Shown here one piece after another: positions 33,402 to 38,024 of a DNA stretch of 39,136 nucleotides. The stretch is from an uncultured Mucilaginibacter sp. (GTDB lineage Bacteria > Bacteroidota > Bacteroidia > Sphingobacteriales > Sphingobacteriaceae). Under the pieces are notes generated by a model, which worked only from the letters and a program-made list of their open reading frames with translations, was not told where the DNA came from and did no database searches. Positions within the stretch are counted from its first letter, which is position 1. Each line of letters begins with the position of its first letter. A program made the translations under genes and the position numbers. The stretch spans positions 1 through 39,136 of the forward strand of contig CAIPDP010000047.1 of assembly GCA_903863845.1 (NCBI GenBank). Direction: 5' to 3'.

Positions 33402-34403
<1,002 letters not shown>

Positions 34404-35252
34404 TTAATTTTTATTAGAATAATATGTTAAGAGATTGTTTATAGGTTCTTTTACAATATTTCCAATCGTAATGTTGGTCTCCGAGGCGGCTTCTAACAGG
34501 TAATCCTGGAAATCAGAGGCAATGCTGCCTGTGAAATGTACAGTCGCCCCCGGATGTTGCTTATGTAAAGGTAATAAATACGTGTGTATTAGTTTAGTAA
34601 AACCGGTGATTATTACGTTTTTCAGATAATTGTCCTCTTTGTTATCGACAAAAAAATCAGCATAGGAGCTCAGGAAAAACGCGGGTTGTTTTTGACGATA
34701 TACTTTTTCAAGCAGGCTCCTGCGGTCGGGATCGTAACGATGTTCAAATTTTTTCTTTACGTTGGCAGGTAAGGTTTCATTCATATAGGCTTTCAGTAAT
34801 TGTCGCCCCAGCCAATTTGCCGACCCTTCATCGGCCAAAATAAATCCGAGTCCGTAGTTATTGGGTTTTACTTTACGCCCATCGAACCAGGCAGCATTGG
34901 AGCCGCTTTCGCAAATACATATGATACCGGGCCTTGTTTTGCAACACGCGATTGCTGCTGCATCAATGTCGTGTTCAACAGTAGTTTTTCCGTATTTGAA
35001 GAAAACCGAAAAAGCATTATGAACAATATTTTTAAGATCGTTTGAAAATGAACCGGCACCATAAAAGTAAATACGCTTGATCACTTCCGCGTGGTGGATG
35101 AGGTTGATGTTTTTGCTTAGCAGTTGTATGATCTGTTTTTCGTCGTTAAAATAGGGATTTATACCTGCAGTTTTAAATGAGGCGATGGTTCTACCTCTAT
35201 CAGCCAGGCGCCAGTCGGCATAATTTGATCCGCTATAAACAACTGCGATCAT
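34404..35252 (-). CDS. BadF/NagK-type ASKHA protein with degenerate ATP site (putative pseudokinase)
   Basis: 282 residues, collinear with the paralogue at 37164-38024. The phosphate-1 motif is lost: where the paralogue has ADGGSTKTNW (residues 5-14), this protein has VYSGSNYADW, so the Mg/ATP Asp, Thr, Lys and Thr become Tyr, Asn, Tyr and Ala. The phosphate-2 motif GTGTNS is changed to ESGSNA, while Asp95 in EHD and DEGS (141-144) remain. It may bind a sugar without phosphorylating it. It lies between pfkA (2-nt gap) and gapA (6-nt gap). Databases would probably call it N-acetylglucosamine kinase; I regard activity as doubtful. Confidence 0.82.
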   Translation of the reverse strand: MIAVVYSGSNYADWRLADRGRTIASFKTAGINPYFNDEKQIIQLLSKNINLIHHAEVIKRIYFYGAGSFSNDLKNIVHNAFSVFFKYGKTTVEHDIDAAAIACCKTRPGIICICESGSNAAWFDGRKVKPNNYGLGFILADEGSANWLGRQLLKAYMNETLPANVKKKFEHRYDPDRRSLLEKVYRQKQPAFFLSSYADFFVDNKEDNYLKNVIITGFTKLIHTYLLPLHKQHPGATVHFTGSIASDFQDYLLEAASETNITIGNIVKEPINNLLTYYSNKN

Positions 35253-35254
35253 GA

Positions 35255-36241
35255 TCAGATTGAAAGAATGTCGGCCATCTCCATCAAATCTTCTTCCAAT
35301 TTAAATTCATGTTCAGTTAACGCTTCTTCCAGGCTCGTGATCTTGATATAGTTTGCCTGTAGGCCTACCATTTCACGGGTATGCCCCTTGATCAACGCTT
35401 TTACAGCTGCGTATCCCAGGCGGCTACCCAATACACGGTCAAAAGCCGATGGACTTCCCCCGCGCTGCAGGTGACCGAGAATGGTAACTTTAATATCGTA
35501 TACTTTAACCTCTTTTTGAACCCGACGGGCGATATCATAAACGCCACCGTTTTTGTCGCCTTCAGCTACGATCACGATACTCGACGATTTCTTGTTATGC
35601 TGCCCGGCCTTCAGATTTTCGATAAGCTCGTCAATAGCAGTTGCTTTTTCAGGAAGCAGGATCGCTTCGGCACCACAGCAAACACCTGCACGCAGGGCAA
35701 TTGCGCCGGAGTCACGGCCCATTACTTCTATAAAGAACAAGCGATCATGTGCATCTGCTGTATCACGGATCTTGTCTATTGCTTCAACAACGGTATTGGT
35801 AGCGGTATCAAATCCAAGGGTATAGGTTGAGCCATACAGGTCATTGTCGATCGTGCCTGGTACGCCCATTACATGGATGTCGGGATATTTTTTTGAGAAA
35901 CGCAAGGCACCTGTAAATGTTCCATCACCACCTATGACAACCAAAGCGTCAATTCCTTGCGCTTTAAGATTTTGGTAAGCGATCTCCATACCTTCGTCAG
36001 TGCGGAATTCGAGGCAACGTGCAGTTTTAAGTATGGTACCACCCAGGTTTAGTATATTGCTGACAGAACGGGGACCCATGTCATACATGTCATTTTCAAT
36101 CAACCCCTGGTATCCTTTTCGGATGCCCACCACCTGCAATCCATTATATATACCTGTACGTACTACCGCCCTTATGCAGGGGTTCATACCGGGTGCATCG
36201 CCTCCGGATGTTAGTACGCCAAGTTTGGTAATTTTATACAT
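35255..36241 (-). CDS. pfkA: ATP-dependent 6-phosphofructokinase
   Basis: 328 residues, bacterial PfkA type. The ATP loop GGDAPGMNP at 14-22, GGDGTF near 103-108 (the Gly expected for ATP- rather than PPi-dependent enzymes), GTIDND near 129-134 (catalytic Asp) and MGRDSGAIA near 173-181 are intact. It phosphorylates fructose-6-phosphate. It is the first gene of the pfkA - kinase-like - gapA operon. Upstream are a -7-like element and an inverted repeat that may be the binding site of the divergent NUDIX regulator. Confidence 0.96.
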   Translation of the reverse strand: MYKITKLGVLTSGGDAPGMNPCIRAVVRTGIYNGLQVVGIRKGYQGLIENDMYDMGPRSVSNILNLGGTILKTARCLEFRTDEGMEIAYQNLKAQGIDALVVIGGDGTFTGALRFSKKYPDIHVMGVPGTIDNDLYGSTYTLGFDTATNTVVEAIDKIRDTADAHDRLFFIEVMGRDSGAIALRAGVCCGAEAILLPEKATAIDELIENLKAGQHNKKSSSIVIVAEGDKNGGVYDIARRVQKEVKVYDIKVTILGHLQRGGSPSAFDRVLGSRLGYAAVKALIKGHTREMVGLQANYIKITSLEEALTEHEFKLEEDLMEMADILSI

Positions 36242-36370: not shown

Positions 36371-37081
36371 TTGGAAGTAAAGTTACCAACATTTAATTCA
36401 GTATTTTCGATCGACTGTGTAATTTTTGGATTTGAGGCTGGTGAGCTGAAAATACTCCTGATCGAACGTAACGAAGAACCCTATAAGGATTGGCTTGCAC
36501 TGCCCGGCTATATTGTTGAGCAGGATGAAAGTATTGATGATGCAGCCGAACGTATCTTATACGAGCTTACCGGCTTGCGAGACCTGCATATGCAGCAATT
36601 CCATACTTTTGGCGAGGTTAATCGACACCCGCAGGGTAGGGTTATAACAGTTGCTTATTATGCGCTGATCCGCATTAATGGTCAAAAAGAGCTTCGTCCG
36701 GTAACTCAATATGCCCGAAAGGCTTTTTGGCACCCGGTAAATGAGCTGCCAAAATTAGCTTTCGACCACAGTGAAATATTTCAAACCGGTTTTAATAAAC
36801 TCCGTCGCCGTTTAAACTATCAGCCCATTGCGTTTGAATTGCTTCCTGAGAAGTTTACGCTAACCCAGTTGCAATCGCTTTATGAAGCAGTATTGAATAA
36901 AAAACTGGATAAGCGTAACTTCAGAAAGAAGATGCTTAGCTACGGCTTTTTGAAAGAATTGGATGAAAAGCAAAAGGGCGTTTCTTACCGAGCCGCTAAG
37001 TTATATAAATTCGATCGCCGTAAATATTCCAAAATATTCCAGAACGAATTGAACCTGGAGAATAAGCAAAAGGTTTTTTAG
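36371..37081 (+). CDS. NUDIX-type transcriptional regulator (NrtR/AraR-like)
   Basis: 236 residues from a TTG start at 36371 (no better start nearby). Residues 10-150 form a NUDIX fold; the box at 47-69 is degenerate (second Gly replaced by Tyr47, catalytic Glu positions replaced by Ile62 and Leu66), so hydrolase activity is unlikely. Residues about 155-230 form the winged-helix domain typical of NrtR/AraR regulators (FTLTQLQSLYEAVLNKKLDKRNFRKK). Such proteins sense nucleotide-sugar or sugar ligands in Bacteroidetes. It is divergent from pfkA and convergent with the second BadF/NagK-like kinase, so it probably controls glycolysis or sugar phosphate genes. Confidence 0.88.
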   Translation: MEVKLPTFNSVFSIDCVIFGFEAGELKILLIERNEEPYKDWLALPGYIVEQDESIDDAAERILYELTGLRDLHMQQFHTFGEVNRHPQGRVITVAYYALIRINGQKELRPVTQYARKAFWHPVNELPKLAFDHSEIFQTGFNKLRRRLNYQPIAFELLPEKFTLTQLQSLYEAVLNKKLDKRNFRKKMLSYGFLKELDEKQKGVSYRAAKLYKFDRRKYSKIFQNELNLENKQKVF

Positions 37082-37163: not shown

Positions 37164-38024
37164 CTACAACTGGCTGGGTGCCAATTCAAGGTGGTATTTC
37201 ACCAGGTTATCTATAGGTGAACGTATGATGTTACCAACAACCATCCCATTTTCAGTCACTACTTCTTCCAGAACATTTCTGAAATTATAGCCAACTGAAC
37301 CGATACAGTTAAAAGTATAGTTTTGATAATTTGGATAATGGGTTACCAGGTTACGGAAGAAATCCTCAAAAGAGGTGCGGACAATATTTCTTGAATATTC
37401 AATATTTACCGGGTTGTCATATACAAATTTGCTAAAGCTGGCGCAAAAACGGTTAGCGCGGGGTTGTGTGTACACTTGTTCGTTAACGTCATCCGGGGTA
37501 AGTTTGAAGGTATCCCAAAAGAGTTTGCGTACTGCTTCCGGCATATAGCCTCGCAAATAATCAACCAGCAGTTTTTTACCGATATAACACCCGCTTCCTT
37601 CATCGCCCAAAATATAGGCACCTGAATCAATATTATGAACCACTTCCTTGCCATTGTAGATACAGCTATTGGTACCGGTGCCCAAAATTGCAGCAAATCC
37701 TTCTGAAGTGCCCAATAATGCTCTTGCAGCGGCCAGCAAGTCGTGGCCAACATATACACGGGCCTTAGTAAATACAGCACGCATTGCTTCTGCCACAATA
37801 TTTCGCATTTCGTCAGTAGAACAACCTGCGCCATAATAATTCACTTCGGTGATTTCGTTTTTTTCCAAATCAGTTGGAAGGTTTTCTGCCAATGATTGAA
37901 TAATATAGGCGGTACTTGAAAAATACGGATTATAACCCTCTGTATTGAAATACACTTTCTTACCCTCTTCAGTAACCAGGCACCAATTGGTTTTGGTGGA
38001 GCCACCGTCAGCAATAATGATCAT
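37164..38024 (-). CDS. BadF/NagK-type sugar kinase (N-acetylglucosamine kinase-like)
   Basis: 286 residues. ASKHA-fold motifs are intact: phosphate-1 DGGSTKTNW at 6-14, catalytic Asp95 in GHDLLAAA, phosphate-2 ILGTGTNS at 113-120, and DEGSG at 141-145. It probably phosphorylates an N-acetylhexosamine or glucose-like sugar; the exact substrate is unknown. It is the functional-looking paralogue of the gene at 34404-35252, with which it aligns residue for residue over at least the first 150 residues. It is convergent with the NUDIX regulator. Two copies of TTAAAAGTAT upstream read as -7-like TACTTTTA on the coding strand. Confidence 0.87.
   Translation of the reverse strand: MIIIADGGSTKTNWCLVTEEGKKVYFNTEGYNPYFSSTAYIIQSLAENLPTDLEKNEITEVNYYGAGCSTDEMRNIVAEAMRAVFTKARVYVGHDLLAAARALLGTSEGFAAILGTGTNSCIYNGKEVVHNIDSGAYILGDEGSGCYIGKKLLVDYLRGYMPEAVRKLFWDTFKLTPDDVNEQVYTQPRANRFCASFSKFVYDNPVNIEYSRNIVRTSFEDFFRNLVTHYPNYQNYTFNCIGSVGYNFRNVLEEVVTENGMVVGNIIRSPIDNLVKYHLELAPSQL

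Follow-up and report, generated by a model that had tools for sequence, protein, structure and literature searches.

A probable sugar-binding pseudokinase conserved between pfkA and gapA in Sphingobacteriaceae

The window analysed here is a whole stretch of 39,136 nucleotides from an uncultured Mucilaginibacter sp., and its relevant features are collected in Table 1. On the minus strand pfkA, a sugar-kinase homologue (called X here) and gapA follow one another in this order, with spacers of 2 nt between pfkA and X and 6 nt between X and gapA. The regulator gene lies divergent from pfkA. The closest named record to X of the window (99%) is an uncultured Mucilaginibacter metagenome-assembled genome, CAIPPO010000067.1, of the Sphingobacteriaceae. 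In many loci of this family the NagK gene lies about 0.9-2.7 kb upstream of pfkA, which leaves space for the NUDIX regulator gene; AraR of the NrtR family is described as governing arabinose use in Bacteroides (PMC4666351).

Table 1. Genes of the pfkA-X-gapA region in the window, with the third paralogue T from the same genome
Feature	Coordinates	Strand	Basis and remarks
gapA, type I glyceraldehyde-3-phosphate dehydrogenase	33402..34397	(-)	TIGR01534, 455.6 bits (cut-off 367.2)
X, 282-aa ASKHA sugar-kinase homologue of NagK/MurK type	34404..35252	(-)	ORF and alignment to the intact paralogue; degenerate phosphate-1 motif YSGSNYA; Asp95, Asn119 and Asp141 retained
pfkA, ATP-dependent 6-phosphofructokinase	35255..36241	(-)	TIGR02482, 393.9 bits (cut-off 371.35)
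NUDIX and winged-helix putative transcription regulator (NrtR/AraR-type)	36371..37081	(+)	PF21906 7.4e-29; PF19368 2.4e-15; PF00293 1.6e-12
Intact NagK-type paralogue	37164..38024	(-)	motifs ADGGSTKTNW, GTGTNS and DEGSG
T, intact third paralogue (P0005)	L283:5001-5861		from the window's own genome

The N-terminus of X reads MIAVVYSGSNYADW and that of the intact paralogue MIIIADGGSTKTNW, and their comparison gives the substitutions D6Y, T10N, K11Y and T12A in X of the window. A first-pass annotation of this DNA had reported the same coordinates, spacers and substitutions, all of which were reproduced by ORF calling and alignment. The alignment with the intact paralogue, claimed there for at least 150 residues, extends to full length with 86 of 279 residues identical (31%, E 2e-44), and Asp95 and the DEGS motif (141-144) are present as described. 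It had also expected X to be labelled simply as an N-acetylglucosamine kinase, which is not what the scanned models give. X scores 21.2 bits against Pfam PF01869 (BcrAD_BadFG, gathering cut-off 31.5), a threshold that the intact paralogue (30.2) and T (25.7) also miss, and 23 bits against NCBIfam NF046058 (NagK_SO3507, cut-off 370; intact paralogue 27.5).

An AlphaFold2 model of X, built on 52 aligned sequences (X itself and 10 intact relatives among them), has a mean pLDDT of 92.3 and a pTM of 0.88. The nearest solved folds are MurK, PG1100 and K1058 (Z 34.7-35.4 over 274-278 residues), and the top sequence match among solved structures is MurK of Tannerella forsythia (E 1.3e-43). X is thereby predicted to have the two-lobed ASKHA (glucokinase) fold of the NagK/MurK subfamily. 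The fold is shared over nearly the whole length with MurK (PDB 8oqw, Z 35.4) and K1058 (Z 34.9), to which X is 31% and 26% identical, and the sugar-contact positions are common to all three. MurK (DSGSTK) and K1058 (ESGSTK) retain the phosphate-1 loop and are active, whereas X has Tyr or Phe at position 6 and neither Thr10 nor Lys11. Solved structures of the two Tannerella forsythia proteins are 8oqw, 8ow9, 8oqk and 8ow7, and their report describes K1058 as more than 200 times slower and ascribes this to residues other than position 6 (PMC10465942). Glu in place of Asp at position 6, found in K1058 (PDB 8oqk) and in the relatives L193, L197, L198, L257, L258 and L279, may deserve attention in that respect.

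The kinase fold is reused for sensing by ROK-family repressors, which carry a DNA-binding domain. One of them, Lmo0178 (PDB 5f7r), matches the model of X with a Z of 16.3, and a ROK repressor has been solved bound to its operator (PDB 5f7q). X differs in that residues 1-280 of its 282 align with MurK, leaving no space for a DNA-binding domain, and none was found fused to the kinase fold.

The loss of the phosphate-1 motif was followed across the family in two sets of proteins. In a set chosen by gene order alone, with PfkA, a kinase homologue and GapA encoded on one strand and some genomes represented twice through different collections, Tyr stands at position 6 in 132 of the 149 loci and Phe in the other 17, and neither Asp6 nor Lys11 occurs in any of them. 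The second set was drawn from 326 proteins and two window proteins, which gave 279 distinct proteins once duplicates and 9 rows shorter than 250 aa, among them the two fragments of the frameshifted X of L085, had been dropped. Its 133 X proteins were defined by Tyr or Phe at position 6, so that the count of 149 loci is the independent one. Thr10 and Lys11 are absent from all 133, and position 12 is Ala in 125 and Ser in 8. The 146 intact relatives carry Asp (140) or Glu (6) at position 6 and without exception Lys at position 11. Since position 12 is Ala or Cys in 35 of 82 intact relatives outside the NagK type, the loss of Thr12 by itself carries little weight. Gly8 and Ser9 are each kept in 132 of the 133 X proteins, which indicates a motif that was gutted rather than erased. 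The phosphate-1 loss noticed in the window is thus a property of every X that was read.

The phosphate-2 motif gives a different picture. The sequence ESGSNA, which the first-pass annotation had given in place of GTGTNS, is correct for X of the window and does not describe the family, in which Gly115 is found in 124 and Glu115 in 2 of 133 distinct X proteins and Ser116 and Gly117 in all. The window sequence is a local oddity, a rare variant of the family's GSG, and the family-wide change at phosphate-2 is that of Thr116 to Ser. The alpha-phosphate serine is present in 69 of 133 X proteins, and Ala195 in 5.

Residues of the sugar site are retained. The numbering of MurK and X is the same; in MurK, hydrogen bonds to the sugar are described for G67, D95, N119 and D141, the pocket is lined by N32, and positions 133-135 shape the fit to MurNAc (PMC10465942). 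Gly67, Asp95 and Asp141 occur in all 133 distinct X proteins, Asn32 in 132 and Asn119 in 125. Positions 133-135 are Tyr or Phe (131/133), Gly (133/133) and Leu or Met (133/133), and Glu142 is invariant. Judged from this sequence record and the model, X is probably a pseudokinase of the Bacteroidota NagK/MurK type, conserved and able to bind sugar, where the sugar binding is read from conservation and fold. The invariant Asp95 counts against this reading, as an active enzyme needs it too. X could still be an enzyme: its phosphate-binding loop may have been rebuilt for phosphotransfer, or its activity may depend on Asp95 and dispense with the Mg-ATP aspartate. The invariance of Asp95, Gly117, Asp141 and Glu142, the near-invariance of Gly8 and Ser9, and a position 6 that is a conserved aromatic rather than random, all under strong constraint, are in line with such an activity. 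The joint loss of the Asp, Thr and Lys of phosphate-1 and the incomplete retention of the alpha-phosphate serine (69 of 133) and of Ala195 (5 of 133) argue against it, and retained catalysis is considered improbable.

In the samples searched, X was seen only in Sphingobacteriaceae-type genomes, a family label taken from named records and from the taxonomy of Mucilaginibacter and Olivibacter. One X-bearing record is titled Flavihumibacter soli, which we take to be a member of another family. A search at the level of the order also returned only the one family, and in a class-level search of 296 genomes none of the 283 outside the family gave an X-like score (best 297.6 bits, against at least 388 for the X matches listed). 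X is present in 135 of 151 family genomes, and 84 X loci were read. The first-pass annotation had asked whether the gene order is conserved, and within the family it is: gapA lies downstream in 84 of 84 and a same-strand pfkA upstream in 80 of 84; the pfkA-X spacer is at most 24 nt and the X-gapA spacer mostly below 11 nt. Every locus but L085 has a full-length X frame. The median dN/dS of X is 0.053 and the maximum 0.114 (48 overlapping pairs, limited to 0.05 < dS < 1.2), next to medians of 0.024 for PfkA (46 pairs), 0.026 for GapA (47) and 0.016 for NagK (15). X therefore evolves faster than its neighbours, yet is clearly constrained by purifying selection. That the operon merely drags X along as a decaying relic is hardly credible given this dN/dS, the intact frames and the many invariant sites, even though one copy (G103, L085) is frameshifted, further losses exist, and X changes six times on a SerRS tree. 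The frameshift in L085 (3828-4675) falls near residue 63, in a one-contig genome without T, and points to decay of the gene unless the sequence is in error.

Among the 89 proteins placed in a tree, X forms one clade (SH-aLRT 100) on a long stem of 0.73. Its closest company there, at a support of only 84-90, is T together with intact kinases of genomes outside the family, and not NagK. Three of these outside kinases (L243, L249 and L269) directly follow pfkA. Intact kinases lie 2-31 nt behind pfkA in L243, L249, L254, L266 and L269, and L272 has the order pfkA-gapA-kinase; these are 6 of 40 outside loci, which were the top scorers rather than a random sample and at which the motifs outside the family were read. 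Their linkage resembles that of X, but their phosphate-1 motif is intact (DSGSTK). The first-pass annotation had named same-operon orthologues with an intact motif as the finding that would speak against a pseudokinase, and such genes were found only in these six loci outside the family, as relatives and not clear orthologues, possibly in the ancestral, active state. The simplest story from the sequences would be that the family's ancestor had an active, pfkA-linked kinase whose ATP site was then lost.

The losses of X suggest a functional connection to T. Both genes were scored in the 151 family genomes by best E-value (X <=1e-70, T <=1e-86). X and T occur together in 132 genomes, neither occurs in 16, a broken X without T occurs in one (G103), and X alone occurs in two, G130 (99% complete) and G119 (92% complete); T alone was not seen. 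T is thus missing in 19 genomes, all 16 without X among them. On a SerRS tree of 60 genomes, made up of all 19 without X or T and 41 hand-picked ones, T changes eight times and is absent wherever X is lost or broken. Well-supported branches give four independent pairs, in which T changes in the same way as X in 3.7 of 4 (median p 0.125, a sign test that is not significant) and the operon pfkA changes with X in 1.8 of 4. These data suggest that the presence of X follows that of T rather than that of the PFK/GAPDH operon. The 17 genomes in which X is lost or broken include nine of small size (1.7-2.3 Mb) that give no match to nagB, so the co-loss is in part explained by general gene loss. T was not found near X, and in the two genomes inspected its neighbourhood offered no functional clue: lnt-, rsmI- and serS-like frames, read from translations, lie beside it in the window's genome, and the neighbours in L286 differ.

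The first-pass annotation had proposed that X is a sugar-binding but non-phosphorylating protein used as a sensor or as a regulator of PFK or GAPDH. The first part of this proposal is in agreement with the kept sugar residues; the proposed target is less well supported. If X were a sensor of this kind, ligand-bound X would dock on PfkA or GapA and adjust glycolytic flux. The tight and conserved operon favours this, as do distance correlations given SerRS (n=37) of 0.57 for X-PfkA and 0.46-0.54 for X-GapA, although values of this kind are expected of genes inherited as one block. The same analysis gave 0.45-0.49 for X-T, 0.38 for T-PfkA and 0.20-0.24 for T-GapA, and did not single out T or any one partner for X. 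Against direct control of PFK or GAPDH, pfkA and gapA are adjacent without X in seven genomes (genera g5, g8 and g20); a GapA+PfkA tree that included five of them places these inside the X-bearing clade, so that they represent losses of X. Moreover, G136, G139, G101 and G062 (L019, L021, L024 and L068) hold X-gapA without an operon pfkA. On balance this regulatory role appears rather unlikely. Only distant pfkA copies, 53-58% identical, were seen in those four genomes. Instead of T, the neighbouring NagK might be the kinase that X assists as a non-catalytic partner, as many loci have a gene of NagK type upstream of pfkA-X-gapA, and it is the nearest upstream match of the four queries in L019, L021 and L024. 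However, 15 of 16 X-less genomes retain a relative of this kinase family, identified as NagK beside pfkA in L216, L217, L219 and L222, and the tree places X closer to T than to NagK, which makes a partnership with NagK very unlikely.

The favoured role of X is that of a non-catalytic partner or sugar sensor of T. X would bind, but not phosphorylate, an amino sugar or hexose and would act with T: it could form the non-catalytic half of a heterodimer or sense the substrate of T. Encoded within the operon, it would be made in amounts tied to glycolytic expression. MurK is described as a homodimer whose interface grows on sugar binding (PMC10465942). The heterodimer option is raised because a protein of X's type is homodimeric and because heteromers of divergent ASKHA paralogues are known, as in the apicomplexan PanK1/PanK2, for which the complex itself is shown in the source (PMC8366970). 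In TsaB/TsaD, too, a divergent ASKHA paralogue partners another. For X and T the corresponding observation is the co-occurrence of their genes. Counted against a link between X and T are the exceptions G130 and G119, the few independent losses, the shrunken genomes and the correlation with PfkA and GapA. Taken whole, the statement that X is a sugar-binding pseudokinase working with T is therefore advanced tentatively, with doubt slightly ahead of belief. In its most specific form, X and T would be an obligate kinase/pseudokinase heterodimer of the NagK/MurK type in Sphingobacteriaceae, in which T phosphorylates an amino sugar and X gates T through a sugar site without an ATP site. The dose of this gate would be set by the pfkA-X-gapA operon, matching the entry of amino sugars to glycolytic capacity; this version is speculative and seems unlikely as it stands.

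Links to particular pathways were sought among the same genomes and set aside. For MurNAc, murQ (TIGR00274) is above the cut-off in 151 of 151 family genomes and does not separate the presence of X or T. For GlcNAc catabolism, nagB is above the cut-off in 50 of the 60 genomes, and the other 10 all lack X and T (nine small ones with no match and G029 with a weak one); nagB is nevertheless present in G004, G026, G042, G054, G007, G052 and G103, which have neither T nor an intact X. nagA is above the cut-off in 44 of 60 and missing on both sides, with no clear link.

The use of dead enzyme copies as sensors or subunits is well established for eukaryotic protein kinases. To our knowledge, descriptions of such pseudoenzymes are rare among bacterial sugar kinases that lack a DNA-binding domain, and nothing on the X gene was found by titles and the starts of abstracts in open-licence papers. 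ASKHA pseudoenzymes are a known kind, of which one fixed family-wide within a glycolysis operon of bacteria appears to be a variant not described before. In X the sugar site is kept and the ATP site lost, a sharp division; the gene is retained across the family in a core glycolysis operon, and its losses form a natural series to learn from. If X gates an intact paralogue or glycolysis, amino-sugar use and glycolysis would be connected at a control point that has not been described, and a kinase label for the gene would be wrong.

A further observation concerns the spacing of the operon. In L027, L028, L030, L033, L034, L035, L037, L041, L047, L068, L076 and L092 the X-gapA spacer is 57-205 nt instead of about 1-10, and these longer spacers perhaps hold an internal promoter or a small feature.
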